20,205 nt of DNA, taken from the IMG/VR virus record IMGVR_UViG_3300006802_000799, positions 1 through 20,205 of that record, one strand, 5' to 3'. This document shows positions 5,075-18,470 of this stretch, in pieces. The translations under genes were made by a program, and so were the position numbers. Position 1 is the stretch's first letter, and the number at the start of each line of letters is the position of its first letter. The DNA comes from a virus. The notes beneath the pieces are model-generated. The model was not told the DNA's origin. It saw only the letters and a program-made list of their open reading frames with translations, and searched no databases.

Positions 5075-5740
5075 TCAATTGGGAGTGTTCTCGTAGAGTT
5101 CTACAGTTTCGATGAGCTTACCAATCCACTTATCTCTCGTTTCGATAAAGATTTGGGGGTCTTCATCGTCTACAGCTATTATAGTGACTAGTTGGGTGAT
5201 AGGCATTCCGGTACGTTCTTCCCACATAACAGCGTATCCAGCTTCCTGGCAGAAGTAGTTTTCGATGTACTCTCGACGCTTGAGTTTTCGGGAAGTTTTG
5301 AAGTCAATGATTGATATCTCTCCGTCAAATTCAGCAACACAATCGACACGCCCAGCAAGACGTAGATGGTCGCTATAAAGAGGAAGTTCCTGGCCGTATA
5401 CTTTTCCGATTCGTTCATCTAAGATATCCTTAACAGATAAGAAGTTAGCAACAATGTTTGGCATATAACCAGACAAATATTTCGAATCGTTATTTATGTA
5501 TTTTTCGATTAATTCGTGAACACTTGTACCACGTTGTGAAGCACGAAAAGAGATTTGATTAGCTTTCTCTTCACCAATTCTTTTTCGCCACCTCTCAATC
5601 GAATCCTTAGACAGAATGCTGAGTACCGTAGTGATGGATGGATATTTTGTTCCAGTCGGTGTAGCATATTTTCGGCCGGATTCTTCTGTAACAGATTGGA
5701 GGTCATCATACCCCAAATCAACTTTCACATGTTCAAACAT
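5075..5740 (-). CDS. PD-(D/E)XK family exonuclease (RecB/MGME1-like), 221 aa
   Basis: Metal-dependent DNA nuclease of the PD-(D/E)XK superfamily. The catalytic pattern is in order: RGTSVHELIEKY (residues 70-81, the helical H..E motif), GRVDCVAEF (Asp133), IIDFKTS (Asp146 and Lys148) and the Gln motif CQEAGYA (Gln165). This arrangement is that of RecB-type, Cas4-like and MGME1-like nucleases, which process DNA ends. In phages it would act in recombination, replication or breakdown of host DNA. The length fits a single-domain enzyme. It separates the sugar cassette from the small-gene operons, 5 bp after the preceding gene; promoter B begins just past its stop. Confidence 0.88.
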   Translation of the reverse strand: MFEHVKVDLGYDDLQSVTEESGRKYATPTGTKYPSITTVLSILSKDSIERWRKRIGEEKANQISFRASQRGTSVHELIEKYINNDSKYLSGYMPNIVANFLSVKDILDERIGKVYGQELPLYSDHLRLAGRVDCVAEFDGEISIIDFKTSRKLKRREYIENYFCQEAGYAVMWEERTGMPITQLVTIIAVDDEDPQIFIETRDKWIGKLIETVELYENTPN

Positions 5741-5745
5741 AATTT

Positions 5746-6540
5746 TTAACTTCGTGCCTTGAGTTTACCTTTACGTAACTTCGCTTCGTACACCCTTCTT
5801 TGTTTACGGTTAAGTTTTGATAGTTGTTCTTCGGTTAGAATCTCTCGTGATTCCATTGCCTTAACAGCTTCTTTTTTATCGACCTTTTCCTGTTTGCGGG
5901 TTTTATGTATCGCCACTTCAACATTTTTTCCTTGAGGAATTTTCATCTCATCATGATCGTGATGAAGAATAAATCGAGTCTGATCTTCAAACTCTTTAAA
6001 TAGATGATACCATATTGGGCGCCAGTTGTTCAAGAGCCTATAGTTATTTGTATTAGATCTGTCACTACTTAAATATACGTCAGTAACAGAACGCATATTA
6101 AAATCTAATATGGTGTCGAATCCATACATATGAATTTCTTTTGGTCTGAACTTTGTTGAAGCAAAATGTGCCGCCATATGACCACAATTAAAATTTGTTG
6201 CTGATTGAGGATCACCTACAGGCCCACAGTATTTTGGTACATGCAAATAAAACTCTTTAATGTTCTGAGCATACTTTAAATAAAAGGTTGATTGACTAGG
6301 ATTGTCCATCCAAATTTTTGGTCGATTCCCAAGAACCCACGGATACATATCGAGATTAACGTGACCTTCAGTTAAAGCCATCATCATTTTAAAATCGACC
6401 ATCACCGTTGCATAGACATTATCAACGTGAAACGGCGGCATATTACAAACTAAACGAATACCCTCTGGTTCATTCATCTCATCCCAGAATACACACTTAT
6501 CACCGTTTCCAATAAGATGTACAACATCACCCTTTCTCAT
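5746..6540 (-). CDS. DUF115/sialyltransferase-like Rossmann protein with charged tail, 264 aa
   Basis: Probably a sugar-handling enzyme of unclear class. The start HLIGNGDKCVFWDE looks like a Rossmann-type strand-loop. The region NCGHMAAHFASTKF (around residues 117-130) followed by RPKEIHMYGFDTILDF resembles the pattern 'G-x-x-A..A...G.KEIyLvGfD' of DUF115 and bacterial sialyltransferase-like (GT42-type) proteins. Residues about 210-264 form a separate, very charged Lys/Arg/Glu tail ending KAKLRKGKLKARS-like, which may bind nucleic acid or an acidic partner. The start overlaps the upstream glycosyltransferase by 14 bp. The family assignment is by resemblance only. Confidence 0.6.
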   Translation of the reverse strand: MRKGDVVHLIGNGDKCVFWDEMNEPEGIRLVCNMPPFHVDNVYATVMVDFKMMMALTEGHVNLDMYPWVLGNRPKIWMDNPSQSTFYLKYAQNIKEFYLHVPKYCGPVGDPQSATNFNCGHMAAHFASTKFRPKEIHMYGFDTILDFNMRSVTDVYLSSDRSNTNNYRLLNNWRPIWYHLFKEFEDQTRFILHHDHDEMKIPQGKNVEVAIHKTRKQEKVDKKEAVKAMESREILTEEQLSKLNRKQRRVYEAKLRKGKLKARS

Positions 6541-7192
6541 GATACATTATTTTCCTAATTTCGTTTTTACCCTTGAATCCCGTCCAATGCATAGCCAATT
6601 TATTTGGACTGTCTTCCCCATCAAGAATTTGAACTCTTAACCAATTGTATATATTGGGTACAGAATTCACTGCAGCTAATTTTTTTAGTGGTGTGTCTAA
6701 CATCAAATGTAAAGTTTCTTGATCTCCTTGAACAGGCCTCGTTCTACAAACATGTTCCCAATCATATAATATTTTAGGTTTTCCTTTGACTGCAACGACA
6801 CCAGAATTGTGCCAAAGTTCGCCAGTTCTTTTAGACCAAGGTTTATCTTCTACCATCGCTAGTTTGCCTTCTTCGACGTAATTAAACACGCCCGACATAT
6901 CACCAAGAATATGAATATCTGTATCTATCCAACAGGCGAATTCACTTTTTATTTCTAACAGGGCTCTAGGTTTCAGAAACCAAGCTTTATTGGTTCCTCT
7001 ATACTGCAAATCTAAAATATCATCGAATTCACTGACTTGATAGGCCCATGCTCGGGTCTGGTCAGTCATTCCAAAATCGGCAAGGACGATTGGGGTCGAA
7101 TTGTGTTTTATATAATTTTTCAGAAACCAAGGCAACATCCATTCTGTTCTATCATCACAACCTGTGATGAAACACTTATCGAATGATTTCAT
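6527..7192 (-). CDS. GT8-like glycosyltransferase, 221 aa
   Basis: Cytoplasmic GT-A glycosyltransferase. SEFACWIDTDIHIL contains DTD (residues 90-92), the metal/nucleotide-sugar DxD. LWHNSGVVAVKG is the 'N-S/T-G' acceptor-side motif, and HWTGFKGK near the C-terminus (His202) matches the H-x-x-G-x-K motif of GT8-type retaining enzymes that contacts the donor phosphates. I chose the ATG at 7192, with AGGTGG 8 bp upstream, over the GTG at 7204 that overlies that site. It overlaps the upstream GT25 gene by 17 bp. Confidence 0.8.
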   Translation of the reverse strand: MKSFDKCFITGCDDRTEWMLPWFLKNYIKHNSTPIVLADFGMTDQTRAWAYQVSEFDDILDLQYRGTNKAWFLKPRALLEIKSEFACWIDTDIHILGDMSGVFNYVEEGKLAMVEDKPWSKRTGELWHNSGVVAVKGKPKILYDWEHVCRTRPVQGDQETLHLMLDTPLKKLAAVNSVPNIYNWLRVQILDGEDSPNKLAMHWTGFKGKNEIRKIMYHEKG

Positions 7193-7823
7193 AATTCTGT
7201 CCACCTTTCCAGTTATGTTTCGCTAAGCACCCTTCGGTTTTTTGAATGGTTGTGAAATAATCTTTTGCAACGACAGGCCAAGGGTAGAACTCTTCCAACC
7301 AAGGGAAGTGAACCAAGTTAAGATAAACATCAGTCGGGCCGCCTTTAGTTTTTGCAGACTCAATAAGAATCTTTGCACCGGCAGGTTTTAGTCTGTATGC
7401 ATGAGCGCCCGGAAAATATCTCTTCGATACCAACGGTCCAGCACCGATGTGCATTGGTGTGTTATACTTTCCATAACTAGGTTGACCCAAAGAGATTACT
7501 TTATCATAGTTAATAAACAAAGGGACGTTATTTACCGCCACCGCATCGTGTTCGAAGATTTGATATTCTTGATTATCCTGTACACACTTCTCCCATAGTG
7601 TATGGTGAGAAAGAAAGGCAGACATACACGATTCAAGGTAGGAATACTTTTCAATAAAACCTTCGGGATTGATACCTTTTTCCTCAAACAATTTTTCAGG
7701 ATTGTCTTTTGGTGTAATCGCATCGAACATTTGTACATTGTGTTCAGGCATCGACTTTACACAACGAGACGCGGCCTCTACGGACTTGGGGTTTGATTTG
7801 ATTGTTATAACAAATGATTTCAT
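7176..7823 (-). CDS. Glycosyltransferase family 25 (LPS-type), 215 aa
   Basis: GT25 enzymes transfer galactose or glucose to lipooligosaccharide cores and, in other organisms, to collagen. The hallmark sequence is present: the N-terminal MKSFVITIKSNPKSVEAASR strand-helix, SAFLSHHTLWEKC (residues 68-80, the GT25 'C.lSH...w' block) and YQIFEHDAV (EHD at 91-93, the metal-binding acidic motif). HIGAGPLVSKRYFPGAHAYR then LKPAGAKILIE matches the conserved 'G..aYl.s..ga..ll' segment. No membrane helix. It is a member of the cassette, with only 1 bp to the preceding gene. Confidence 0.85.
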   Translation of the reverse strand: MKSFVITIKSNPKSVEAASRCVKSMPEHNVQMFDAITPKDNPEKLFEEKGINPEGFIEKYSYLESCMSAFLSHHTLWEKCVQDNQEYQIFEHDAVAVNNVPLFINYDKVISLGQPSYGKYNTPMHIGAGPLVSKRYFPGAHAYRLKPAGAKILIESAKTKGGPTDVYLNLVHFPWLEEFYPWPVVAKDYFTTIQKTEGCLAKHNWKGGQNYEIIR

Positions 7824-7824
7824 A

Positions 7825-8532
7825 TTAAAGATCTTCGATTATTCCCTTTGCAATAAAGTCTTTTAGATTTTCATCTCTCGGTTTTGGTTTGTGTCTCATA
7901 TGTAACATGAACGCTTTCTCAGGATTGGGCAGATAACTACTCTGGTCCCATCGTGAATCTAAATTATACTTAGGTCCGATTGTAACACCGGCTTTTACTG
8001 ACAGACAGTGGAAGATACCTTCGTCCACAAACGGTAAGGGACTGACCTGTTTAAACATTCTCTCCATTTCAGGATTAATTTGATTACGCAAAAGAATACG
8101 AAAATCTCTAGGCATCACATAACAAGCACCAGACCAGATTGGAGTATTCATACTAGCCCAGTGTGGAAACTGTCTATAAAACTTCGGTAATATCATATCA
8201 CTATGAATTTTGTCAAAAGGTGCAATTCCTTTTGCTTCTAGAATATTTTCTTGACAACCTTTTACCATAAATTTGTCAGTATCCAGCATAACAACAACAT
8301 CGTATTCATCATACTCTTCGTTAATCATTGCACATTTTTGACACTGTGCTCTCAACCCAGGTCTGAAAGGTTCACCAGACAACAAACGGTATTCCGCTCC
8401 GATAGACTCCGCATATTTTTTTATGTTTGCAATGCTTTTGTTTACGATCCATGGCCTAGGAGTTTCAGAACCTAATTCTGGATCTCTATTAACAGCCTGC
8501 GGTTCGAAATGTTGTAAGATAATACCTTTCAT
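7825..8532 (-). CDS. Glycosyltransferase, cassette paralogue 1, 235 aa
   Basis: One of four related GT-A proteins in this cassette (with 8536, 10078 and 14713). The shared plan is an N-terminal 'ILQHF' strand, the helix KKYAESIGAEYRLLSG, the DxD strand VVVMLDTDKF (DTD 84-86), a late NLDSRWDQ block and a His near the end (FMLHMRHKPK). This fits a nucleotide-sugar transferase of the GT8-like type. No signal or membrane segment. It follows the upstream paralogue by 3 bp. The ribosome binding site is weak, so translation probably depends on coupling. Sugar and acceptor unknown. Confidence 0.75.
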   Translation of the reverse strand: MKGIILQHFEPQAVNRDPELGSETPRPWIVNKSIANIKKYAESIGAEYRLLSGEPFRPGLRAQCQKCAMINEEYDEYDVVVMLDTDKFMVKGCQENILEAKGIAPFDKIHSDMILPKFYRQFPHWASMNTPIWSGACYVMPRDFRILLRNQINPEMERMFKQVSPLPFVDEGIFHCLSVKAGVTIGPKYNLDSRWDQSSYLPNPEKAFMLHMRHKPKPRDENLKDFIAKGIIEDL

Positions 8533-8535
8533 ATT

Positions 8536-9336
8536 TTATAGGTTCCATTGATCAACGGGAAGATTCACTATACGTAATAATGTGTCTTCATTATAATGAT
8601 TAGCGCCGGCTAATTGAACATGAACAAAGTTTGCTCGACCTTCTCTTAGATCATTCACTGGTCTTGGTTCTTTTGTTCCTGGAACATAATGAACAGAACT
8701 GTTCCATTTGTAGTCTAGTTCTTTCCAGTTTAAACCAGCAACCTCTAACATTGCGTGTAGATAGGGTTGGTCACAAGTATAGAACACCGGCAATCCAGAA
8801 AAGTTTATCATTGAAACATAACTTTGAAAAGGAACGAACCTTGCACGAGCTTTGTTTATACCTTTTCTAGACCACAATACAACGCCAGAATTATAAGCTT
8901 TTACAGAACCACATTCAGCTCTAGGTAGAGTGACACCCCATTTTGATTCTACGGTTCTTGCCCACATCTTATCATTAGAGTGATTAATACCCGCAACAGT
9001 GTGTTTTTTTCTGACTTCTACTTGTTGCCATTCTTCTACAATACCAACATCTTCGTCTTCGATTTCATCAAAAACATTTTCTTCTAAGTTTTCGGTAGGG
9101 AAGACATCGGTGTCGGTAAAAAGAATTTTGTCATATTTGTCGAATGACTTATCAAACACAACTTTAAACTGGCCGTAATGTGGTGAATACTTTCCTAAGT
9201 TAGTGACATACTTGGGATCTCGTTCGAACAAATAATCTGCGCCAATCCGGTCTGCATATTTTTTCATGGCGGAAGTACTAGCCAAACACTCTTTGGACGG
9301 AACACCATCCCAGTATTGATATATTAAACAATTCAT
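8536..9336 (-). CDS. Glycosyltransferase, cassette paralogue 2, 266 aa
   Basis: The same plan as the other cassette paralogues: start MNCLIYQYWDG, helix MKKYADRIGADYLFE, DxD strand KILFTDTDVFP (DTD 75-77), acceptor-side YNSGVVLWSRKG, the block KELDYKWNSSVHY and a late ANFVHVQLAGANHY with the His-x-x-x-Gly type donor motif. The N-S-G and DxD motifs together make a retaining GT8-like enzyme likely. AGGT sits 8 bp before the ATG at 9336. Acts in the cytoplasm; specificity unknown. Confidence 0.78.
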   Translation of the reverse strand: MNCLIYQYWDGVPSKECLASTSAMKKYADRIGADYLFERDPKYVTNLGKYSPHYGQFKVVFDKSFDKYDKILFTDTDVFPTENLEENVFDEIEDEDVGIVEEWQQVEVRKKHTVAGINHSNDKMWARTVESKWGVTLPRAECGSVKAYNSGVVLWSRKGINKARARFVPFQSYVSMINFSGLPVFYTCDQPYLHAMLEVAGLNWKELDYKWNSSVHYVPGTKEPRPVNDLREGRANFVHVQLAGANHYNEDTLLRIVNLPVDQWNL

Positions 9337-9340
9337 ATTT

Positions 9341-10081
9341 TTACCTATATGCTAATCTAACGCCACCGCCGCAACATAAATGATTAGTACCAAATGGGTA
9401 ACTCAATACCTGATACCAACCAATTTCAGATGGGTACAACTGTTTAGATTTATATAACTTCTTAACCCATTCAGAATCATACATTTCTCTAGGATGTAAT
9501 ATCATAAAGTCTTCCAGGTATTTTCTACCCTCATCTTGATAGTTACCATCCAGATGTTTAATTGTTTCCCAGTTACCATTAATACCATTAACACCAAACG
9601 AAAATCCAATAGCACGTTTTTTCTCGTATGAATTTTCAACATATCGAGTAAAGTCGCACTTTAAAGAAATTTCAATATCGTAACGAGCACGAATTATCAT
9701 ATCATATTTTAACGGAATTTTTTCAAGATGTAAAGCGTGTCCGATTAATTGTTTGGTTCGAAGAGCCTTAAAATGTGCATATTCCCAATTGTCTCGAAAT
9801 CTTTTCATTCGGTTAGGATTGTTAGTGATTACGTTCGGGCCAACCGTGGATTCGGAACCATCTTTGTTTGGAAAGGTGGGTGATTCTAAAAACGCACAGT
9901 AATCTATTTCTGGTTCTTCAGCGTGGTCTACTGGAGAGTTTAGTATGGATTCCATCTCCGTCTTATATTCAGACCATGTAAAATAAAACGGGTCAGCATC
10001 CGGAAAAACTTTTTTATACTTGTCAATACAAGAAACAACATTGCCCCTTGGTATGCCAGAAAAACAGATTGCTGTTTTCAT
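9341..10081 (-). CDS. Glycosyltransferase-like protein with R-x-R-Y-D motif, 246 aa
   Basis: Distinct from the GT-A paralogues. The start MKTAICFSGIPRGN and the middle strand YDMIIRARYDIEI (RARYD 131-135) are the pattern of phage and bacterial proteins related to surface-polysaccharide synthesis (WavE-like and similar glycosyltransferase-like families), in which RxRyD takes the place of DxD. The C-terminus contains two adjacent Cys (NHLCCGGGVRL). The call rests on motif resemblance and on position between two glycosyltransferase genes. Its stop lies 4 bp before the next start. Confidence 0.6.
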   Translation of the reverse strand: MKTAICFSGIPRGNVVSCIDKYKKVFPDADPFYFTWSEYKTEMESILNSPVDHAEEPEIDYCAFLESPTFPNKDGSESTVGPNVITNNPNRMKRFRDNWEYAHFKALRTKQLIGHALHLEKIPLKYDMIIRARYDIEISLKCDFTRYVENSYEKKRAIGFSFGVNGINGNWETIKHLDGNYQDEGRKYLEDFMILHPREMYDSEWVKKLYKSKQLYPSEIGWYQVLSYPFGTNHLCCGGGVRLAYR

Positions 10082-10830
10082 ATAATCAGATCACCGTAAA
10101 TAGATTTGACCGTACTAACAATCTGTCTTTTTCTCCCCGCACAAAAGTGTATCAAGGATGCATCAGGATCAGAATCTTCTGGTTGATTACAGAATTTCTT
10201 GTCCCATCGAGCATCCTCTCTAAATTTAAGATTACACAAATCTTCTCCATCACGGTAATCTGTTCTCATACAAACATCACGAGGGTGTTTACCGTCAAGA
10301 ATTTTAGATTGATGAAAAAGATAATGTAGAATGATTTCATCACCTGGATGTTTGTCTACCAGAGATTCTTCAAATAATTTTTGATTCCAATGTTTTCTAA
10401 GTTCTTGTCTTTGTTCTTTATTAAGTTTTATCCAGTTACCAAAGAAACACCATGTTCCCTGTTTGTATAGGTTAGGTGCGGCTTCAGGTGTTTTACTAGG
10501 ATGAGGTTTTCTTGTGACTGCATTCAACGCTTTTGGTCCAGCAATCGCTCTATCATGCAACACGCCAATTTCAGGTCGATTCCAAAAACTCTGATATCTT
10601 TTAGTCGCAATGGTATCCATATCGATCATGCACACCTGATCATACTCGTCATACTTTTCTAATAGAAGACATAATTTCTGTGGGGTGAACCCAAGTTCTT
10701 TACCCATAGGAAAACCACGAATCAATTGATAATCAGCTCCGGTCATCTCTGCATAACGTTTCACCGTTTTCTCGCAGAAATAAGCCCACTCAGGCATATT
10801 ACCTTCAAAATGTTGCAGTATCAGATTCAA
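10078..10830 (-). CDS. Glycosyltransferase, cassette paralogue 3, 250 aa, TTG start
   Basis: GT-A glycosyltransferase of the cassette family: LILQHFEG start, helix VKRYAEMTGADYQLIRG, DxD strand VCMIDMDTI (DMD 70-72), late block EDARWDKKF and terminal SLIHFCAGRKRQ. The start is a TTG at 10830: it overlaps the upstream stop (TTGA), has GGAG 8 bp upstream, and places the first strand exactly where the paralogues begin (MNLILQHF against MKNLIFQYY and MKGIILQHF). An ATG-initiated frame at 10881 would add 17 residues that are merely the upstream gene read in another frame. Confidence 0.8.
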   Translation of the reverse strand: MNLILQHFEGNMPEWAYFCEKTVKRYAEMTGADYQLIRGFPMGKELGFTPQKLCLLLEKYDEYDQVCMIDMDTIATKRYQSFWNRPEIGVLHDRAIAGPKALNAVTRKPHPSKTPEAAPNLYKQGTWCFFGNWIKLNKEQRQELRKHWNQKLFEESLVDKHPGDEIILHYLFHQSKILDGKHPRDVCMRTDYRDGEDLCNLKFREDARWDKKFCNQPEDSDPDASLIHFCAGRKRQIVSTVKSIYGDLII

Positions 10831-12173
10831 GATTTGTTCTCCAAATAGTATGATAAATCTTCGGGTGTACCCAATCCCCACATTTCATTCGCTTGATACG
10901 TTCTAATTATTTTATTATCTTCAATAGCTTGGTTGAACACTGGACACACATAAAATTCGTTATTGACACGAACATCTCTTTCTATCATCTGTTCAGCGTA
11001 TTTCACAAAGTCAGAACCTTTTTTCCAATAATAAAAACCTACCGTAGCGTTATCAGAAATAGGGTCCTTTTCAGCAACCTTTCTTACTATACCATGTTCA
11101 TCAACTTCGGCAAAAGACCATTTGGGATGTGTGGCCTTAAACGTGACAATTCCACCATCAGCATGACTCTCTTGCATGTTGTACATAAATTGAACAGGGT
11201 CCCAGTTTACCCATTGGTCACTGTTAGCAAAAAATAACGGGTCTTCAGAATTAATATATTCTTTTGCTAAGAGTGCAGTACAGGCTGCACCTTCAGTAAT
11301 ACCATCAACTTCAACAACTTTACAGTTGGGCGCAATAAGAGACAACATGTTCTTTAGGTTGTATTTTTCGTTATGTTCTTTCTGACAAACAAAAATATAA
11401 TTCGCTTCTAGTCCAAGATTCTCAACCACAACCTGAATCATCGGTTTACCTTTAATATCAATTAAAGGTTTCGGGAACGTGTAACCAGCTTGTGCAAACC
11501 TAGAACCTGCGCCAGCCATAGGAATTAGGACATTTAACTTTTCTTCTTTCCAAACGTTTTTCACTTCATTAGTTTCCAATTTAGGCATGATTTTTTCTTT
11601 AGTGACATCTTTAGTGCTTTCTACTCTTATGTATGTGGCTCTTGAACGTGCTGCCGCGAGAAGACCGGGCGGAGAATCTTCAACAATTACAGTCTCTTCA
11701 GGAAGACAACTCATCATAGACATCGCTTTCCAGTATATTTCTGGATGCGGTTTTGAGTTCTTTACATCTTCATTAGATAATATAACTGAACAGTACTCTA
11801 TTAAACCAGATTTTGCAAGAGCTGTCAAGACTGTCCGACGAATAGAATTAGAACATACTCCAATCATATACCCCTGTTTTTCCAATTCTTTAAATAACTC
11901 TAATGCGTGTGTATTGATTGTGAGATTGTGCATCATCTCAACAGTCTTCTTTTGTTTAACATCGAAGATTGTTTCGTGGTCCTCAACAGGCAAACCAAGT
12001 CTTTCAGTTAGCATCTGAAGTTTTTCTTTGGTTTTTCTACCATCAAAAATATTTCGATGGTCCTCACGAGATATTTCGTATTTGATTGGTAGTGCGAAGT
12101 TTAAAGCTTGATAATGAATTTCTTTTGCGTCTACTAACACGCCATCAAGATCGAATAAGACTAATTTTATCAT
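10827..12173 (-). CDS. HAD phosphatase-sugar nucleotidyltransferase fusion, 448 aa
   Basis: Two enzymes in one chain. Residues 1 to about 200 are a HAD-superfamily hydrolase of the beta-phosphoglucomutase-like type: nucleophile motif LFDLDGVLVD (Asp8, Asp10), motif II VCSNS (108-110), Lys141 in NSKPHPEIYW and the acidic motif VEDSPPG (165-166). Residues about 213-448 are a sugar-1-phosphate nucleotidyltransferase: LIPMAGAGSRF then FPKPLIDIKGKPMI, the metal site FFANSDQW (317-320) and a terminal EMWGLGTPEDLSYY. The pair could hydrolyse or isomerise a sugar phosphate and charge it with a nucleotide, supplying the donor for the neighbouring transferases. The N-terminal ATG at 12173 overlaps the previous stop (ATGA). 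Both active sites look intact; the exact sugar cannot be told. Confidence 0.88.
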   Translation of the reverse strand: MIKLVLFDLDGVLVDAKEIHYQALNFALPIKYEISREDHRNIFDGRKTKEKLQMLTERLGLPVEDHETIFDVKQKKTVEMMHNLTINTHALELFKELEKQGYMIGVCSNSIRRTVLTALAKSGLIEYCSVILSNEDVKNSKPHPEIYWKAMSMMSCLPEETVIVEDSPPGLLAAARSRATYIRVESTKDVTKEKIMPKLETNEVKNVWKEEKLNVLIPMAGAGSRFAQAGYTFPKPLIDIKGKPMIQVVVENLGLEANYIFVCQKEHNEKYNLKNMLSLIAPNCKVVEVDGITEGAACTALLAKEYINSEDPLFFANSDQWVNWDPVQFMYNMQESHADGGIVTFKATHPKWSFAEVDEHGIVRKVAEKDPISDNATVGFYYWKKGSDFVKYAEQMIERDVRVNNEFYVCPVFNQAIEDNKIIRTYQANEMWGLGTPEDLSYYLENKS

Positions 12174-12769
12174 CGCCAGAATATAATATCACACTCATGA
12201 TTAGGTTTATGTATACGATATTTAAATCCATGTTCTTCCAAAAATTTCATTGCGTTTGCATGTGTGTTTCCGGTACCAGAATAAAGTTCAACCTTGTATG
12301 CAACTTCCATGCGGCCTTCTTGTATATTTTTAACATGATCTCCCATGCTTTTCAGAACATTAAGATCATTACCCTGTGCATCACACCAGAAATAACTAAT
12401 TTTATCGTAGTTAAGGTTATCTAAGAAACTTTCTAGTCTGATTCTCTCAACCGTTATTTTTTCTACGACCTCAAAATCTTCGCGGCCAGGCCATACTTCA
12501 TCTAAGTTGGTAGAGAACTCGTGAAGACTAGAACAACCGTAAGCGTAAGCAATTCCTGTTGGTTTTGAAATATTGAACGTGGCGGGGCCCTCTTCAATAT
12601 CAACAGCGTAAGGATACAAATTAACTCGATAGTTATTTTTATATCTTTCAGTTAATTTGTTATATAATTCTGGTACAGGTTCGAAACCATGATAATCACC
12701 ACGATATTGTAGCAATCTTTCCACATCTTGGCCGGTGTTTACGCCGATTTCTAAAATAATATTCCCCAT
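12170..12769 (-). CDS. FkbM-like SAM-dependent methyltransferase, 199 aa
   Basis: Probable O-methyltransferase. IILEIGVNTGQDVERLL (residues 4-20) is the glycine-rich SAM motif I, and YHGFEPVPELYNKL (31-44) is motif II with its acidic residue, typical of FkbM proteins ('FEP.p..f..L'). SYFWCDAQGNDLNVLKSMG stands where FkbM has 'iKiDvEG.E..vL.G', with the usual DVEG replaced by DAQG. FkbM enzymes often methylate sugars in glycan clusters, which fits this position between the epimerase and the HAD/nucleotidyltransferase. AGGAT lies 8 bp upstream of the ATG. Confidence 0.82.
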   Translation of the reverse strand: MGNIILEIGVNTGQDVERLLQYRGDYHGFEPVPELYNKLTERYKNNYRVNLYPYAVDIEEGPATFNISKPTGIAYAYGCSSLHEFSTNLDEVWPGREDFEVVEKITVERIRLESFLDNLNYDKISYFWCDAQGNDLNVLKSMGDHVKNIQEGRMEVAYKVELYSGTGNTHANAMKFLEEHGFKYRIHKPNHECDIIFWR

Positions 12770-12777
12770 GATTTATC

Positions 12778-13713
12778 CTAATTATGATAAGACCTATACC
12801 ATTTAACAAAGTTGTCAACACCTTCTTCAATAGAAGTTTTTGGATTATAACCTATCGATTGTAATTTTCTAGTATCACTCCATGTTTCCAAAGCATCCGC
12901 TGGGTGTTTAGGACCTAATTCAATAATCGCCTTTTTATCCAATGAAGTTTCTATAGCCTTTACAAATCTCATGAGTTCTACCTGTTCCCCTCGACCAATG
13001 TTGTACATATCGCGGGGAGTCATATTGTTAAACACACATTCAATACCGTGTACGATATCATCAACGTAAGTAAAATCTCTTTTCATTTCGCCATAATTAA
13101 ACAGTGTGATGGGATTACCAGCGAGAATGTTTTTGGTGAAATCGAACAGGGCCATATCTGGGCGACCATAAGGACCATACACTGTGAAGAATCTCAACCC
13201 AACAGCATTAGGAATTTTCGAAATATGAAACTGAGATTCGTTGATAAACTTGGTATATCCATATGGATTAATCTGCGGATAGATATGTTCACTCTCTCCC
13301 CAAGGTAAAGGATTTCCATGTAACACACAAGACGTTGAAGCATAAACTACATTTGGACAGTTGTTTTTTTCTAATGCATTGATAAGGTTAAGAGAACCCA
13401 TACAGTTGTTCGTGATATACTCATCAGCATGTTCCATAGAATAACGCACACCTGCCATGGCTGCAAGATGAATACAGAAGTCTGGTCTGATATTATCAAC
13501 AATGAAAGTTGTTTCTTCGGGACTTTTCAAATCTATCTTTTCAACTTTTACATTGTATTCTTCTCTCAATATTTGAGCACGTTTATGTTTGAGATCTGGA
13601 TCGTAATAAGAGTTGAAGTTATCAATTCCCCAAACTTCATGACCTAAGTTGGTGAAATGTTTAGCAGCATGAAACCCTATGAAACCAGCTGCACCTGTGA
13701 TTAAAACTTTCAT
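12778..13713 (-). CDS. NAD-dependent sugar epimerase (UDP-glucuronate 4-epimerase-like), 311 aa
   Basis: Extended short-chain dehydrogenase that epimerises a nucleotide sugar. The NAD-binding loop GAAGFIG (7-13) follows the first strand, and WGIDNFNSYYD carries the acidic residue for the adenosine ribose. The catalytic Ser/Thr lies in YASTSC (124-129), and Tyr151-x-x-x-Lys155 in NPYGYTKFINE is the active-site pair. VGLRFFTVYGPYGRPDMALF is the substrate-binding block typical of UDP-glucuronate 4-epimerases and CapI-like proteins. Length is normal. The ATG overlaps the upstream stop (ATGA), with GGAAG before it. It would supply an epimerised donor to the transferases. Confidence 0.92.
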   Translation of the reverse strand: MKVLITGAAGFIGFHAAKHFTNLGHEVWGIDNFNSYYDPDLKHKRAQILREEYNVKVEKIDLKSPEETTFIVDNIRPDFCIHLAAMAGVRYSMEHADEYITNNCMGSLNLINALEKNNCPNVVYASTSCVLHGNPLPWGESEHIYPQINPYGYTKFINESQFHISKIPNAVGLRFFTVYGPYGRPDMALFDFTKNILAGNPITLFNYGEMKRDFTYVDDIVHGIECVFNNMTPRDMYNIGRGEQVELMRFVKAIETSLDKKAIIELGPKHPADALETWSDTRKLQSIGYNPKTSIEEGVDNFVKWYRSYHN

Positions 13714-14114
13714 TTATCGCTTCCTGTTAGATAGTACATTTTACCCTTTTTGATTACTTCGGGGTTTCTTTTTTTGATATAATCGTTTTTTGATTCTCCT
13801 TTATATAGGTCACGATTAACAGAGAAAGAACTTTCACACTCAGCACCTTGAAAATCATTAGGCATGTATTCATGCCAAGACGGACATATTGTCTGATTTT
13901 TTTTCAGTTCTAAAAGGTCAGTCATCATTCTATACGTTGGTATTGCATCATATGTTGTAATGAAAACATTTTGAAATAAACAGTGATTGATACCATTCAT
14001 CACGTTTTTTGCAAATACAATTTGGTACTTAGGGTCATCTTTATATTTAAAATAAAGAGGGTGCCACAAAGGTTTTAGTGAATTATCACCTGTAACTACT
14101 ATACTCACTTCCAT
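13710..14114 (-). CDS. Cassette protein of unknown function, 134 aa
   Basis: I do not recognise a family. It starts with a beta strand and a turn (MEVSIVVTGDNSLKPLWHPL) and has further strands such as KYQIVFAKNV and FQNVFITTYDAIP. The second half includes a Cys/Trp/His segment (QTICPSWHEYMPNDF) and a basic, probably extended tail. It overlaps the methyltransferase upstream by 10 bp and the epimerase start by 4 bp, so it is clearly part of the cassette. A small sugar-modifying enzyme or a glycosyltransferase fragment is possible. Confidence 0.7.
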   Translation of the reverse strand: MEVSIVVTGDNSLKPLWHPLYFKYKDDPKYQIVFAKNVMNGINHCLFQNVFITTYDAIPTYRMMTDLLELKKNQTICPSWHEYMPNDFQGAECESSFSVNRDLYKGESKNDYIKKRNPEVIKKGKMYYLTGSDK

Positions 14115-14716
14115 GGCTTTTTGGCCTCAACCACGGTAGAGTGCATAGCACGAATTTGTCCTGGCGTATCAATGTTATTGAAATCTGCCAAGGAACTTTT
14201 ACCGTATGCGTATTCCTTTGCGTTCTGAAAACCAAGTGTCGTTAGTGTATCAATCATCTCTTGTTTACCCCAGAGATATAAATGCTCTCCCTTTTGGTAT
14301 AGTAAACCAAGAGCAACCTGTTCTTGAATTCTTTTGTTCTGATGTCCAGCAGCACAGAATCTTTCTTGTATAATGTATCTCTGGTAGTAATGTTTAACAA
14401 ACGGATGATCAGATAAATCTTCTTCACCAACTAACCACTCAACAACATCATATGAAGGCCACACAGTCCGAACTACGCCGCCTGGTTTCAAAACTCTCAT
14501 AATTTCTTTGAAGACGTTCACACCCTGATACTTGTACATGTGTTCAATGAAATGTTCTGAATAAACACCGTCATAAAAATTATCAGGTGCGCCTTTAATA
14601 GGCAAATTGGTGAGGTCATGAAGTTTTACTGCCTTATCACCATAGTTACTACTAACATTTACTGCATCCCAATTCAAACCACGTTTACGATTCGCGGCTA
14701 ATTCTAAGAACATCAT
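14105..14716 (-). CDS. SAM-dependent methyltransferase (type 11-like), 203 aa
   Basis: Class I methyltransferase-like protein. The recognisable part is DNFYDGVYSEHFIEHM (strand 4 with the 'S.hviEH' pattern) followed by FKEIMRVLKPGGVVRTVWPSY, the usual strand-5 'RvLKPGG' motif. The glycine-rich SAM loop is shortened: the N-terminus AANRKRGLNWDAVNVSSNYG replaces the usual 'G.G.G', a form seen in SAM enzymes of glycan clusters. I choose the ATG at 14716, which overlaps the upstream stop (ATGATG) with GAGGA 8 bp before it. Likely modifies a sugar or the glycan acceptor. Confidence 0.78.
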   Translation of the reverse strand: MMFLELAANRKRGLNWDAVNVSSNYGDKAVKLHDLTNLPIKGAPDNFYDGVYSEHFIEHMYKYQGVNVFKEIMRVLKPGGVVRTVWPSYDVVEWLVGEEDLSDHPFVKHYYQRYIIQERFCAAGHQNKRIQEQVALGLLYQKGEHLYLWGKQEMIDTLTTLGFQNAKEYAYGKSSLADFNNIDTPGQIRAMHSTVVEAKKPWK

Positions 14717-15462
14717 ATACACATTCCTCTTTTTTCTAGTTCAGGCATACTAAATTTATGACGTGCCAAAAAGTGATTGATATATCCATCAGGTTGACCC
14801 ACCCACTGATAAGGCAAACGATTCCATTTGTTATCTAACTCGGTCACTTTAAAAACAGGTTGGGATAATTGAAGATTGACATACATCTGTTCGGTATATC
14901 TTGTGTGTATAACATAATCGTCCAGTGACGTAAAATGTTCTCGGGCCTTCTCTCTTCCCTGTTTTGACCAGAGTTGTAAACCACCATTCATATATCTCCA
15001 CTTTTCTTGTGGATATAATGATGACTTAGGAAACATCCAATCGTCACCAAAAAGTTTTTTACCATAAGCGATAATACCTCTTTGGTCAAGTGGTACATAC
15101 ATCACCTTTGACAACCATCCACCCATCTTTTGATGAATACCAACCTCGTGTACCATCGCAACATCTTCAATTGGTATATCAAAAATATTTTCTCGGGTGG
15201 TGATAAGCATATCAAGGTCAAGGACCAAAATCTTATCGTACTTAGAGAATTGTGAGTCGTAGTGAATCCTACTAGAATCTAGTCTGGGGTCTAGGTCCGG
15301 AAAGAACCTATCGTGAAGCAACGTGTAATCAGCACCACAAAGTTCTGCATACTTTCTAGCGCACCTAGAACCTGTCCGGGCCCATTCAGGCATTTCAACG
15401 CCGCCTAGGTGAGTGTCATTCGCCTCATAGGGAATGTAGTACTGAAATATCAAATTTTTCAT
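14713..15462 (-). CDS. Glycosyltransferase, cassette paralogue 4, 249 aa
   Basis: First gene of the sugar cassette in transcription order and a member of the four-paralogue family: MKNLIFQYYIP start, helix ARKYAELCGADYTLLHD, DxD strand ILVLDLDMLI (DLD 82-84), acceptor block WRYMNGGLQLWSKQG (N-G-G in place of N-S-G), TELDNKWNRLPYQW, and GYINHFLARHKF near the end. It shares the MPEWA segment after the first strand with paralogue 3, its closest relative here by eye. Cytoplasmic; donor and acceptor unknown. Confidence 0.78.
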   Translation of the reverse strand: MKNLIFQYYIPYEANDTHLGGVEMPEWARTGSRCARKYAELCGADYTLLHDRFFPDLDPRLDSSRIHYDSQFSKYDKILVLDLDMLITTRENIFDIPIEDVAMVHEVGIHQKMGGWLSKVMYVPLDQRGIIAYGKKLFGDDWMFPKSSLYPQEKWRYMNGGLQLWSKQGREKAREHFTSLDDYVIHTRYTEQMYVNLQLSQPVFKVTELDNKWNRLPYQWVGQPDGYINHFLARHKFSMPELEKRGMCI

Positions 15463-15480: not shown

Positions 15481-15636
15481 TTAACGATAATTATATTTTT
15501 CTAATAAACGTTCTGTTTCATCATTCCAATCGTTTTTAGATGATGAGACGTTTTTATTAGGTTTCTTCTTTTCAGCTCTATACTTATCGTTTTTCTTTTT
15601 CTTATTCTTAGGATCAAATCTAGAATACTTAGCCAT
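15481..15636 (-). CDS. Lys-rich small protein, 51 aa
   Basis: ATG at 15636 to TAA at 15481-15483. Translation begins MAKYSRFDPKNKKKKNDKYR and continues AEKKKPNKN, then a short acidic/aromatic end (WNDETERLLEKYNYR). It is extremely basic in the first 30 residues. The start overlaps the stop of the protease gene (TAATG), which supports translation. Basic phage proteins of this size may bind DNA, RNA or ribosomes. Similar in kind, not in sequence, to the 47-aa basic protein at 16630-16773. Confidence 0.7.
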   Translation of the reverse strand: MAKYSRFDPKNKKKKNDKYRAEKKKPNKNVSSSKNDWNDETERLLEKYNYR

Positions 15637-16052
15637 TATTTTTTCCAAAACTTTCCTTGAATCAATTTAACAATCACAACCAGAGGGTTGTAGTAATATT
15701 TAAAGGTCCAATCGTATTGTGCATAATCTTGTTCGTAAGCAATCTTATACGACCACTCACGTTTCCAATTGTCCACATACATACCATGATGGTAAAGAAT
15801 AGCGTGACCACCACCGTTCACTGTCACGTAACAGATTTTAAATTTACCTGTCAGCAACATCCACAAAAACTTTAATCTACTTTGACCAGCAAGCAACCAA
15901 GCAACAGTGAGTGCATAGTCTTCACAATCACCTTGGTCTTTCTCAGCATTAACGTCTAACACCCGCCAATAATCTGATGCGTTATACTGAACTTTATCGT
16001 ATTCATATTCGAAAAGACTGTTTACTTTTTCTACGGCTTGATGTTTGTCCAT
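15636..16052 (-). CDS. Transglutaminase-like cysteine protease (BTLCP-like), 138 aa
   Basis: Resembles bacterial transglutaminase-like cysteine proteinases (peptidase C93/BTLCP, related to LapG). The catalytic triad is visible: Cys43 in QGDCEDYALTVAWLL, His83 in GGGHAILYH and Asp94 in MYVDNW. LapG-type enzymes cut periplasmic linkers of surface proteins; phage copies are known from annotation, but their substrate is not. No signal peptide is present, so this one starts in the cytoplasm. AAGGA stands 8 bp before the ATG. The gene overlaps the nucleotidyltransferase-fold gene upstream by 22 bp and the Lys-rich gene downstream by 1 bp. Confidence 0.85.
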   Translation of the reverse strand: MDKHQAVEKVNSLFEYEYDKVQYNASDYWRVLDVNAEKDQGDCEDYALTVAWLLAGQSRLKFLWMLLTGKFKICYVTVNGGGHAILYHHGMYVDNWKREWSYKIAYEQDYAQYDWTFKYYYNPLVVIVKLIQGKFWKK

Positions 16053-16582
16053 TTATTTTTCCTTTGTAACAACACCTTAACTGAGATTGGTGTCGCAATT
16101 TTTTTTCTATTTCTTACCTTTTCAGGCAAAGTCTTTAATTTTTTCTCATATTCTGGTATTGGAACTATTTCCCATAAATTATTTTCTATCTTAGTATAAG
16201 TTACTTTATCGCTTACGTCAATACCGTTCTTGTATATTTTATCATGTGGTTTGTAAAAACCTTCATAAACACCGAATTCAATCTCATTGAATCTTTTAAA
16301 CACTCCGGTGGTATTAAATATTTCTGTTTGTATCATAAACAACCGAAATGTTTCTGGTGTAACAACGGAGATGTCTAGCAGTTGTTTAAGTTGGTGAGCG
16401 GAGTTGCATAAGTCTACACAATCTCCACCCACCTCCGAATTAATTTCGGATACCACTAACAAATCAATATCCCAAGTATCAGTTGTTTGAAGAAAACCGC
16501 CATACACATAACAATCGTACTTATCAAAAAACGATTGGTTGTGTCTAACAACCTCAGAGAACATTTCAATATTAGGTCTCAC
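16031..16582 (-). CDS. Nucleotidyltransferase-fold protein, 183 aa
   Basis: Residues 25-44 (YVYGGFLQTTDTWDIDLLVV) match the core of pol-beta-type nucleotidyltransferases: Gly28-Gly29 followed by Asp38-x-Asp40. The residues downstream (GGDCVDLCNSAHQLKQLLDI, then SVVTPETF) could give the third strand, but a third catalytic acid is not obvious. Such proteins transfer NMP groups to RNA or proteins, or are inactive relatives. The C-terminus is basic. The start is GTG at 16582; the ATG at 16564 is a possible alternative, and neither has a strong ribosome binding site. AAAGGA is farther upstream, before a 4-codon ATG-to-TGA frame that ends on the GTG. Confidence 0.65.
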   Translation of the reverse strand: MRPNIEMFSEVVRHNQSFFDKYDCYVYGGFLQTTDTWDIDLLVVSEINSEVGGDCVDLCNSAHQLKQLLDISVVTPETFRLFMIQTEIFNTTGVFKRFNEIEFGVYEGFYKPHDKIYKNGIDVSDKVTYTKIENNLWEIVPIPEYEKKLKTLPEKVRNRKKIATPISVKVLLQRKNKWTNIKP

Positions 16583-16776: not shown

Positions 16777-16938
16777 TTAGTCCTCAGTTTTTAAGAATGT
16801 CCAAATGCCATATGCTAAACCAGCCCACGCCAAAAGTTTTGCAATACCACCAAAGAGAATTACCGCACCACAGACGCCGATTAACATCGCGCCATCAAGC
16901 GTGGTTCTTTCTCCCATAAGTTTACCTAAGTATTTCAT
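16777..16938 (-). CDS. Small membrane protein next to lysozyme, 53 aa (possible holin-like)
   Basis: ATG at 16938, overlapping the lysozyme stop (ATGA), to TAA at 16777-16779. After a short basic N-terminus (MKYLGKLMGERTTLDGA) a hydrophobic stretch of about 30 residues follows (MLIGVCGAVILFGG, then LLAWAGLAYGIWTF), long enough for one extended or two short helices. The tail is LKTED. Position directly behind an endolysin, translational coupling and size suggest a holin or other lysis partner, but the sequence is not that of a holin family I know. T4 itself keeps its holin gene elsewhere, so the link is only contextual. Confidence 0.72.
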   Translation of the reverse strand: MKYLGKLMGERTTLDGAMLIGVCGAVILFGGIAKLLAWAGLAYGIWTFLKTED

Positions 16939-17375
16939 ATTGCCTCCAATCGACTCATGAGTCGTTCTGCTCGGTTAGTTACTTGACGATACCATTTTGA
17001 GTCACGCCCTTCTACTGCGGCAGTCTTCCAGTCACCTTCGTTAGCTGCTGCACAGAATTTCTTGAAACCTGACAAACGGGGTCTACCCATATTGAACATC
17101 ATGTTGACAATAACTTGTTGTGCTTCTTCGGGGAAGTCATCAAAAGTTTCAAAGAGAATGTTACATTCAGAAATAGCAACATCCAAATCTTTTTCAAAGG
17201 CTTCCCATACTCGTTCTTCTGATACAGGTGTTTCAAACGGCGAACCCCATTCTGGGTCACCCTCAACGATTAAATGACCTACACCAAATGTGTGAAGACC
17301 AAGATGGTCAGCGTATACTTTATATTCTACACCCTCATCAATCTTGAGTGTCTCGAATACTTCTTCTCTGTTCAT
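16935..17375 (-). CDS. T4-type lysozyme / endolysin (GH24), 146 aa
   Basis: Muramidase that cuts the MurNAc-GlcNAc bond of peptidoglycan, needed for host lysis (or tail-associated entry). The GH24 catalytic triad is intact: Glu14 in IDEGVEYKVYADHLG, Asp23, and Thr29 in LHTFGVGHL, the same spacing as T4 lysozyme Glu11-Asp20-Thr26. The later NMMFNMGRPRLSGFKKF and SKWYRQVTNRAERLM are the conserved substrate-binding and C-terminal helices. No signal sequence or SAR anchor is present, so release needs a holin. Length is close to T4 lysozyme (164 aa). It overlaps the preceding small gene by 4 bp (ATGA). Confidence 0.95.
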   Translation of the reverse strand: MNREEVFETLKIDEGVEYKVYADHLGLHTFGVGHLIVEGDPEWGSPFETPVSEERVWEAFEKDLDVAISECNILFETFDDFPEEAQQVIVNMMFNMGRPRLSGFKKFCAAANEGDWKTAAVEGRDSKWYRQVTNRAERLMSRLEAI

Positions 17376-17539: not shown

Positions 17540-17775
17540 TTATTACCCTCAGTTAAAATGTTCGGTAAATTACCTGGCGTCCCATTAACATAATCCAATG
17601 CATCAATCAACTCTTTATACTTTGCAATAGCATCCAGTTCATTTTCTAGTGTCTGCATAAAGTCACCATGTTCAGCAACACCTACTGGATTCTTCATGAA
17701 GGTGTGCCAGTTTGCCATATGATACTGCAAACGTCCTTCAAGGTAACTTCTCATTGCTTTTGAAATGTGTTCCAT
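17536..17775 (-). CDS. Small hypothetical protein, 79 aa, coupled to PhoH
   Basis: Unrecognised helical protein (MEHISKAMRSYLEGRLQYHM, later ENELDAIAKYKELIDALDYV). I select the ATG at 17775, which overlaps the PhoH stop (TAATG) with GGGGAT 7 bp upstream; an ATG at 17793 would lie inside the PhoH gene without a site. It ends by overlapping the next small gene (GTGA). The strict coupling to phoH suggests co-expression and perhaps a common process. Confidence 0.75.
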   Translation of the reverse strand: MEHISKAMRSYLEGRLQYHMANWHTFMKNPVGVAEHGDFMQTLENELDAIAKYKELIDALDYVNGTPGNLPNILTEGNK

Positions 17776-18470
17776 TACTTTATCCCCATCCATTCCTTAG
17801 TCATTATGTAGTCACGTACAAAATCGCTGCGAACAATATCTTCCCAGCCAAATGATATTATACTGAAATGCCGCATATTGTCAAGTATTTCTAAAAATGT
17901 ATTTACGCCTTGTTTGTCTTTCTCTTGTTTAAAATCTGATTGGTGATAGTCACCACAGAAAATAATTTTAGTGGCCTGACCAATCCTAGTGATTACAGAA
18001 TCTAATTCATGAAAGTTTAGGTTCTGCATTTCATCTACTAAAATAATACAGTTGTCATATGTCACGCCCCTAATATATGAAGTCGAATCAAATCCGACAT
18101 ATCCATTATGAACTAACTTTTCGTATGCTTTCACATCATTAAATAACTCTGTACATATTGCACGATAAGGTCCGGTGAATGCGTTGAGTTTGTCTTCTAG
18201 TGTTCCAGGCAAATATCCTACTTCTCTAGTAGGAACAACGCTGCGAATGATTTGAACTTTATCGTAAGGTGTGGACTTATCCATTACCTCCTCTAGTGCG
18301 AGATACATTGCAAGAAAAGTTTTACCTGTTCCAGCTGTACCAGTGAGTGCAAGATGGTCTCCTTCTTTCCAAGATAGGAACGCCTCTCGTTGTTTGTCTG
18401 TGATTGGATCAACTGTGATTAAATCGTCCAATCGAATATTCAACTGTTCCGTTTGTTTTTGTTGCTTCAT
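17775..18470 (-). CDS. phoH: PhoH-like P-loop ATPase, 231 aa
   Basis: PhoH-family ATPase/putative RNA-related enzyme common in marine phages. The Walker A loop is GTAGTGKT (44-51) and the Walker B region CIILVDEMQN (141-150, Asp146-Glu147). RSVVPTREVGYLPGTLEDKL (76-95) and FCGDYHQSDF (sensor region) are the conserved PhoH blocks. The protein lacks any additional PIN or KH domain and matches the short phage form. The biological role in phages is unsettled despite the historic link to phosphate. It overlaps the FmdB-like gene upstream by 4 bp (ATGA) and the 79-aa gene downstream by 1 bp (TAATG). Confidence 0.95.
   Translation of the reverse strand: MKQQKQTEQLNIRLDDLITVDPITDKQREAFLSWKEGDHLALTGTAGTGKTFLAMYLALEEVMDKSTPYDKVQIIRSVVPTREVGYLPGTLEDKLNAFTGPYRAICTELFNDVKAYEKLVHNGYVGFDSTSYIRGVTYDNCIILVDEMQNLNFHELDSVITRIGQATKIIFCGDYHQSDFKQEKDKQGVNTFLEILDNMRHFSIISFGWEDIVRSDFVRDYIMTKEWMGIK

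Follow-up and report, generated by a model that had tools for sequence, protein, structure and literature searches.

A sugar-gene island of marine T4-like phages that probably attaches a variable glycan to phage proteins or the host surface

The 20,205-nt stretch of DNA analysed here (the window) is part of the genome of a marine T4-like phage, and its positions 5746-15462 hold a 13-gene cassette that probably adds a variable sugar chain to proteins of the phage itself or to the host surface. We read the island as a glycan-diversification island, comparable to an O-antigen or capsule locus of which only the cytosolic part is present, with a virion protein as acceptor; this reading may equally well prove right or wrong. 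More tentatively, we propose a wholly cytosolic, phage-encoded system that abundant marine T4-like phages would use to place a long, lineage-specific oligosaccharide on their virion proteins, with the cassette interior exchanged in blocks, in a serotype-like manner.

Gene content and genomic context

Thirteen minus-strand ORFs are packed across the region with overlaps of 4 to 55 b or gaps of 1 to 8 b, which confirms the dense sugar cassette described in a first-pass annotation of the window. By type, they are one GT25, several GT8-like glycosyltransferases carrying DxD motifs, the DUF115/sialyltransferase-like anchor, a protein fusing HAD and nucleotidyltransferase domains, an enzyme resembling UDP-glucuronate 4-epimerases, an FkbM methyltransferase, a second, weaker methyltransferase-like protein and an orphan. 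The cassette genes and their neighbours are as follows.

tRNA genes, 1484-2392 of the window
PDDEXK exonuclease, 5075..5740, minus strand: conserved gene bordering the island on its 3' side (PF12705, phrog_298)
gA, 5746..6540, minus strand: conserved anchor gene whose product is predicted to have a nucleotide-binding alpha/beta fold of DUF115/GT42-sialyltransferase/Maf type (alignment and AF2 fold comparison)
gB, 6527..7204, minus strand: GT8/glycogenin-fold glycosyltransferase, invariant DTD (AF2 model and Foldseek)
gC, 7176..7823, minus strand: GT25 glycosyltransferase (PF01755, E 3.9e-13)
gD, 7825..8532, minus strand: GT8-like glycosyltransferase, DTD motif (sequence similarity to gG and gE, DxD in the alignment)
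gE, 8536..9336, minus strand: GT8-like glycosyltransferase, DTD motif (PF01501, E 2.8e-4, below the cut-off)
gF, 9341..10081, minus strand: putative glycosyltransferase of a family without database name (phrog_13607, E 1e-5)
gG, 10078..10881, minus strand: GT8-like glycosyltransferase, DMD motif (similarity to gD, DxD)
gH, 10827..12173, minus strand: HAD phosphatase of the beta-phosphoglucomutase class fused to a sugar nucleotidyltransferase (PF13419, E 5e-29; PF00483, E 2e-11)
gI, 12170..12769, minus strand: FkbM-type SAM methyltransferase (PF05050, E 4.6e-15; TIGR01444 above its cut-off)
gJ, 12778..13713, minus strand: SDR nucleotide-sugar 4-epimerase
gK, 13710..14114, minus strand: 134-aa orphan, present only in some relatives
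gL, 14105..14722, minus strand: methyltransferase-like protein whose SAM motif I is degenerate (PF08241, E 3.8e-7)
gM, 14713..15462, minus strand: GT8-like glycosyltransferase, DLD motif; the cassette begins with this gene (similarity to gE, DxD)
Phage lysozyme, 16935..17375, minus strand: conserved gene bordering the island on its 5' side (PF00959, E 7e-8)
PhoH, 17775..18470, minus strand: conserved flank (PF02562, E 1e-39)

The total in the first-pass annotation was one short (12 genes against 13) because gK was given no family by any of our searches. The Pfam families found in the cassette were GT25, HAD_2 with NTP_transferase, FkbM and Epimerase (PF01370), together with the weak GT8 match. 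NCBIfam provided no name for any cassette glycosyltransferase, nor did Pfam for the relatives of gF, gD, gG, gM or gK, and a DNA search of the window against GenBank phages returned tRNA matches only. The same genes recur in the same order in IMG/VR contigs, at 62-98% amino acid identity, so the cassette is not a chance assembly. The true start of gG may fall inside its overlap with gH.

The cassette lies near phoH and tRNA genes, as do the sugar or LPS clusters of marine T4-like myophages, and PhoH and the exonuclease place T4-like core genes on both of its sides. The flanks of relatives add an NrdA match and ThyX-, NrdB-, gp32- and gp6-like proteins, and the related phage C48C1 has annotated T4-like structural genes. 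The genome hosting the island is that of a marine T4-like (Kyanoviridae-type) phage.

Glycosyltransferases and the anchor gene

The closest fold to the AF2 model of gB (mean pLDDT 78, pTM 0.80) is glycogenin (Foldseek E 1e-10; Z 17.9; rmsd 3.4 over 204 residues). gB thus combines the GT-A fold of GT8 enzymes with a DxD motif, of which D94 and D96 are invariant, while having no Pfam match at the sequence level. For gF, R131, R133 and D135 are invariant in the alignment, and no match was found among GenBank phages.

The gA family counts 517 relatives in IMG/VR and its alignment contains an invariant GNGD motif. The 17 best matches in the fold comparison of its AF2 model were HPPK, TPK, CstII and other bacterial sialyltransferases, Maf and human sialyltransferases (including ST8Sia), with Z of only 5-7.4 for a model of mean pLDDT 69. 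Foldseek by itself found no confident match for gA in the PDB, and a viral structure library returned mostly uncharacterised phage proteins and one MptE-like phage protein (E 0.011). At the sequence level, profile searches detected no Pfam family at E 0.1, hence no DUF115, Maf or GT42 profile, and nothing significant in the PDB for either gA or gB. The label "DUF115-like" given earlier to gA is therefore backed by a fold comparison of middling strength and by no Pfam match. A search for a bacterial origin of gA turned up just two MAG contigs, which may be binned phage.

Sugar activation and modification

The fusion protein gH is 53-54% identical to Synechococcus phage proteins. gJ is probably a UDP-glucuronate 4-epimerase: it aligns over nearly its full length with 5u4q (E 8e-73) and with 6zl6 (E 1e-38), which we take to be a UDP-GlcA 4-epimerase, and it carries the SDR YxxxK motif as YGYTK. 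Its homologue in phage C48C1 (53.5% identical) adjoins a UDP-glucose dehydrogenase.

Two methyltransferases had been proposed. The FkbM protein gI stands, and gL is doubtful: the Methyltransf_11 profile (PF08241) covers it through its C-terminal half only, and its SAM motif I reads LELAAN (LELGAN or LEIGGD in aligned relatives), a degeneracy that makes its activity uncertain. In the "branched, methylated glycan" proposed earlier, methylation is plausible through gI, and branching was not borne out.

Membrane segments and export machinery

Using a 19-residue window averaging at least 1.6 as the criterion, hydropathy predicted no membrane segment in the 13 cassette proteins, the maximum being 1.40 in gH. 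As previously stated, the proteins thus appear devoid of membrane helices and of signal peptides, the latter also judged by hydropathy only. Across 63 loci, none of the 655 island ORFs had two or more TM segments.

We searched near-complete relatives (contigs of 116-156 kb and one complete 156-kb circular genome) for Wzx (PF01943), Wzy (PF04932), ABC2 (PF01061) and PGT (PF02397), with no credible match and with positive controls. GtrA (PF04138) gave a single match, below threshold and in a reading frame that contains stops. Neither the genes of a Wzx/Wzy or ABC exported-polysaccharide locus nor the GtrA-type flippase of Gtr-type O-antigen conversion were thus credibly detected. The reported lack of flippase, polymerase, ABC exporter and phosphoglycosyl transferase is thereby supported at genome scale by sequence searches, including for the genes that would flank the window, where an export system would have contradicted the earlier reading.

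Conservation, exchange and selection among relatives

In relatives too, an island, of 6.5-16.7 kb, lies between PhoH/lysozyme and the exonuclease. The GT25-GT8-DUF115-like trio is conserved at one of its ends: gC is present in 52 of the 52 loci tested, gB in 42 of 52, and gA adjoins the exonuclease in 59 of 73. The interior is reshuffled, with 39 gene orders in 52 loci, and differs from that of the window in a relative whose flanks are 86-99% identical. The relative G021 matches the window in lysozyme (98%), PhoH (96.5%), gC (99.5%), gA (90%) and exonuclease (96%), and encodes other transferases and a sulfotransferase in place of gM, gL, gK, gJ, gI and gG. These comparisons show that close relatives swap the interior as a block. 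The gB of the window, 63% identical to those of two relatives that are themselves 94% identical to each other, is an allele exchanged alone.

Compared with a relative whose cassette is free of decay (L003), all 13 genes had dN/dS of 0.01-0.15, similar to PhoH and lysozyme. Non-functional headful filler ("stuffer DNA") was raised as one possibility for cyanophage LPS clusters (PMC3037559). This explanation, to which we give almost no credence, is contradicted by purifying selection on every gene, by the intact L003 cassette and by anchors conserved over dozens of loci, and we rejected it.

Candidate acceptors of the glycan

A virion protein is our best guess for the acceptor, ranked above a host surface glycan and with about an even chance of being correct. 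Sugars would be activated by the HAD-nucleotidyltransferase, interconverted by the UDP-glucuronate-4-epimerase-like enzyme, transferred by the GT25, GT8-like and DUF115-like enzymes, and methylated. The conserved trio may make a conserved root on a conserved acceptor, to which the variable interior would attach outer sugars and decorations: methyl here, and presumably sulfate, deacetylation and radical-SAM chemistry in relatives. Glycosylation of a virion protein in the cytoplasm during infection would give each phage lineage its own glycotype, which would then be a trait of a widespread marine phage group. Virus-encoded, soluble, signal-less glycosyltransferases, as expected for cytoplasmic virion glycosylation, are what hydropathy indicates here.

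The folds speak on both sides. The nearest fold to gB belongs to glycogenin, a cytosolic protein-initiating GT8, and the list for gA includes Maf, which glycosylates flagellin in the cytoplasm; both favour a virion protein. The GT8 and GT25 families, however, also include enzymes of the LPS/LOS core, and gA also resembles CstII, a LOS sialyltransferase, which favours the host surface. The fold that gA shares with CstII or Maf points to no particular acceptor.

Remodelling of the host surface is a serious, if less probable, explanation: soluble glycosyltransferases would modify LPS core or lipid-linked O-antigen intermediates from the cytosolic side, host exporters would do the rest, and the altered surface would block superinfection. 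The earlier inference from missing export genes to a soluble target is weaker than claimed because the GT8 and GT25 glycosyltransferases of LPS core and LOS are likewise soluble and use host exporters, which keeps a host-LPS target in play. Expression timing bears on the same point. The T4 late-promoter octamer TATAAATA is strongly enriched in G021 (20 occurrences for about 5 expected) and absent from the island and its surroundings. Late transcription from a strict T4 late promoter is thus unsupported; the missing octamer points to expression in the early or middle phase, which weighs slightly towards host modification. On the other side, turnover of host LPS takes time for a lytic phage, no Gtr-type membrane-bound modification gene reached a credible score, and a phage-borne acceptor would account just as well for a conserved root trio beside an exchangeable interior.

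The solubility of all the enzymes would also suit a soluble target within the host, such as a protein or a small-molecule signal that the phage would inactivate. We consider this improbable, as so long and exchangeable a pathway exceeds the needs of inactivation and we know of no precedent of such size. DNA, one of the targets suggested initially, is disfavoured and is the least likely acceptor. Glycosylated hypermodified bases have textbook precedent in T4-like relatives, which glycosylate hydroxymethylcytosine, and some relatives of the present phage encode a TET/JBP dioxygenase. However, the thymidylate synthase/dCMP hydroxymethylase homologue (PF00303) expected for T-even DNA glucosylation was absent in 8 relatives, and G021, the closest near-complete one, also lacks a TET/JBP enzyme. 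Where present, TET/JBP sits elsewhere in the genome and has partner genes of its own (either a GT-like gene together with an RfaE-like cytidylyltransferase, or a UDP-galactopyranose mutase), and a chain of seven glycosyltransferases far exceeds known DNA glycans.

Comparison with known systems

Virion glycosylation has a precedent in the chloroviruses, whose capsid glycans are synthesised in the cytoplasm by virus-encoded glycosyltransferases without signal peptides (PMC7019647). Like our cassette, PBCV-1 also encodes a sugar methyltransferase; unlike it, PBCV-1 is a eukaryotic virus whose glycan and acceptor are proven. If the virion-protein reading is true, the island would be the phage counterpart of this system. 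Among phages, mycobacteriophage capsids bear glycans: in the sections of PMC11256854 used here, phage-encoded glycosyltransferases and a glycosylated major capsid protein are described for Che8 and Rita, siphoviruses of actinobacteria with few glycosyltransferases and, in those sections, no large exchangeable cassette.

Sugar ("LPS") gene clusters near phoH were reported in 2010 in the T4-like cyanophages P-SSM2, S-SM2 and S-SSM7, with their function left unsettled between LPS remodelling and stuffer DNA (Sullivan 2010, PMC3037559). They resemble the present island in their marine T4-like setting near phoH and tRNAs and in their glycosyltransferases, epimerase and nucleotidyltransferase. P-SSM2 differs in having just two genes at the corresponding site, which PhoH and the exonuclease likewise delimit. 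In the two stretches of P-SSM2 that were compared, matches were limited to PhoH, the exonuclease, small flank genes and a 24% identical epimerase, the sole relative of an island gene; they held no cassette glycosyltransferase and, over these stretches, the cassette is not orthologous to the P-SSM2 cluster. The present island is widespread, under strong purifying selection and subject to block exchange, and no export machinery was found in near-complete relatives.

The pelagimyophages, a related phage group, have a GT8-rich hypervariable host-recognition island, which the sections of PMC7029224 consulted read as host O-chain modification, in agreement with a host-surface role here; those sections mention no test for exporters. 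Its insertion point and gene set, as described there, are different. HTVC008M has a 30% identical gB homologue in a sugar island adjoining ribonucleotide reductase.

Phage C48C1 (OQ984149, Kyanoviridae, complete, 156 kb), a name under which we found nothing in the literature, is the nearest phage with a complete genome on record. It carries lysozyme, a gM-like glycosyltransferase, a radical SAM protein, a glycosyltransferase and gA in the same order. Its island is smaller and includes a NodU-like carbamoyltransferase, with the epimerase and dehydrogenase located elsewhere in the genome.

Gene content of the cassette

The window is a self-contained virus record of 20,205 bases without a larger parent genome, and its ORF listing shows 13 tightly packed minus-strand genes running from 15462 (gM) to 5746 (gA). 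Searching Pfam families, gC was assigned to GT25 (E = 4e-13), and a HAD-nucleotidyltransferase fusion (gH), an FkbM methyltransferase (gI) and an NAD-dependent epimerase (gJ) were recognised. gE is GT8-like at an E-value of 3e-4, under the Pfam cut-off, and gL methyltransferase-like with a match covering only half of the profile. By pairwise similarity gD, gG and gM are recognisable paralogues of gE, and the DxD motif is kept in all four aligned proteins. No informative match was returned for gF or the 134-residue gK by family searches including relatives. The first-pass annotation had described the cassette proteins as free of membrane helices; a hydropathy test, used rather than a dedicated signal-peptide predictor, agreed, the highest 19-residue mean being 1.40 and no stretch reaching membrane-helix strength.

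Directly upstream, a small transglutaminase-like protein (15636-16052; BTLCP, weak PF06035) is kept in close relatives. Between it and the lysozyme lies a nucleotidyltransferase-like gene (16031-16582; weak PF01909) without match in the close relative L003. An extra GT-A-like protein with a DSD motif (2809-3486; phrog_1574, unknown function) stands outside the cassette and is unmatched in L003 and in the 146-kb relative G021.

The AF2 model of gB (pLDDT 78) has a GT8 fold, glycogenin being its best match (Foldseek E = 1e-10, Z = 17.9, 3.4 A over 204 residues). The gA model (pLDDT 69) reached Z-scores of only 5-7.4, its first 17 fold matches comprising HPPK, thiamin pyrophosphokinases, CstII, Maf and other sialyltransferases; we tentatively regard gA as having a DUF115/sialyltransferase-like fold. 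gJ aligns nearly full-length with 5u4q (E = 8e-73) and with 6zl6 (E = 1e-38), which we take to be a UDP-glucuronate 4-epimerase, and retains YxxxK. In phage C48C1, a circular 156-kb Kyanoviridae genome and the closest complete one found, the gene directly after a 53.5% identical homologue encodes a UDP-glucose dehydrogenase (Pfam), which would supply UDP-glucuronate. From these alignments and this neighbourhood, gJ likely converts UDP-GlcA to UDP-GalA.

Phage lineage

PhoH and the flanking genes match best to those of cyanophages and further T4-like phages. Where relatives are longer, their flanks include ribonucleotide reductase and proteins reading as ThyX, NrdB, gp32 and gp6. DNA identity to GenBank phages is confined to tRNA genes, so the lineage is unrepresented among them. 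Two contigs assigned to Flavobacteriales and Sphingobacteriales MAGs (L055, L056) also carry gA homologues; they are possibly binned phage DNA and could hint at hosts.

The island in relatives

IMG/VR was scanned with the epimerase, the HAD-nucleotidyltransferase and a gA alignment, the latter alone retrieving 517 relatives; in the relatives the island recurs at the same position. In the 52 loci that extend 7 kb or more upstream of gA, some of them from near-identical contigs, so that counts are not independent, GT25 was always present, gB was found in 42 loci and the HAD-nucleotidyltransferase in 24, and there were 39 distinct gene orders. The exonuclease comes after gA in 59 of 73 loci (again with some near-identical contigs), and complete lysozyme-to-gA spans measure 6.5-16.7 kb. 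Radical SAM proteins, a sulfotransferase, a PIG-L deacetylase, a hexapeptide protein and further methyltransferases occur in relatives only. Upstream of PhoH, L035:14317-16074 and L040:16471-18243 encode NodU/TobZ-like carbamoyltransferases, possibly for further glycan decoration, and L043:2-448 reads as an S-adenosylmethionine synthetase, possibly supplying SAM to the methyltransferases.

G021 is close to the window in the flanks (protein identity: g19442 98.6%, g18945 96.6%, PhoH 96.5%, g17536 85.9%, lysozyme 97.9%, exonuclease 96%), in gC (99.5%) and in gA (90%); in place of the gM-to-gI block and gG it has different transferases, together with an epimerase-like gene and a sulfotransferase. 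L003 retains the full gene set at 82-98% identity except gB (63%). Since the gB proteins of L003 and G021 are mutually 94% identical, gB (6527-7204) was exchanged alone in the window lineage, a single-gene allelic replacement within an otherwise conserved block.

T4-like marine phages are already known to carry sugar clusters near phoH. In P-SSM2, PhoH and the exonuclease are close with only two genes between them, and the two P-SSM2 stretches compared share none of the cassette glycosyltransferases. As far as we are aware, the conserved trio (gC, gB, gA), block exchange, selection test and genome-scale exporter absence are not described in the open-access literature.

Selection

Compared with L003, dN/dS (Nei-Gojobori) was 0.010-0.152 for the 13 cassette genes, a range that includes the values for PhoH (0.052), lysozyme (0.049) and exonuclease (0.076); the ratios are approximate, synonymous sites being near saturation in several genes. 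'Stuffer DNA', raised as a possibility for cyanophage LPS clusters (PMC3037559), is contradicted by these values despite their approximate nature.

Absence of an export system

An export system encoded beyond the window would have spoken against the first-pass annotation, and none was found in relatives. Wzx (PF01943) was absent from 20 records and from a second set of 16 (several of 111-156 kb), ABC2_membrane from the relatives' records searched, and the phosphoglycosyl transferase family from 8 records. The sole Wzy_C match in the profile search of relatives' records was sub-threshold, with stops, in P-SSM2. Positive controls were detected in 10-14 of 14 reference genomes. Across 63 distinct loci, 655 island ORFs of 100 residues or more were screened, and none had two or more membrane segments. 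Outside the island, G021:115323-116348 encodes a membrane protein with four segments and a charged central part; it has no Pfam family match, and a late-promoter octamer precedes it.

Acceptor of the glycan

DNA, host surface and virion protein were compared as acceptors. We give a virion protein an even chance, favoured by the conserved root trio with its exchangeable interior, the glycogenin-like anchor and precedents of virion protein glycosylation in chloroviruses (PMC7019647) and mycobacteriophages (PMC11256854). Counting against a virion protein, TATAAATA is about fourfold enriched in G021 yet absent from the 29-kb stretch containing the island, so island expression may be early or middle.

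The absence of exporters had been taken to indicate a soluble target. The absence stands; the deduction is weakened, because the GT25 and GT8 families, classically tied to the LPS/LOS core, have soluble members, and a host-surface acceptor is compatible with the lack of exporters. O-chain modification is also the interpretation published for pelagimyophages (PMC7029224). We hold a host-surface acceptor as the more tentative reading, behind a virion protein.

DNA is unlikely, because the island occurs both with and without TET/JBP-type dioxygenases, found in 4 of 8 relatives and lacking in G021; a thymidylate synthase/dCMP hydroxymethylase homologue was found in none of 8 relatives searched. 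Such dioxygenase genes in relatives include:

L149:862-3406, TET/JBP-type dioxygenase
L148:1267-3443, TET/JBP-type dioxygenase
C48C1 (OQ984149) 49583-53030, TET/JBP-type dioxygenase

They form clusters of their own, with a GT-like gene and an RfaE-like cytidylyltransferase 3', with uncharacterised genes, or with a UDP-galactopyranose mutase nearby, and probably represent a separate DNA base-hypermodification cluster.
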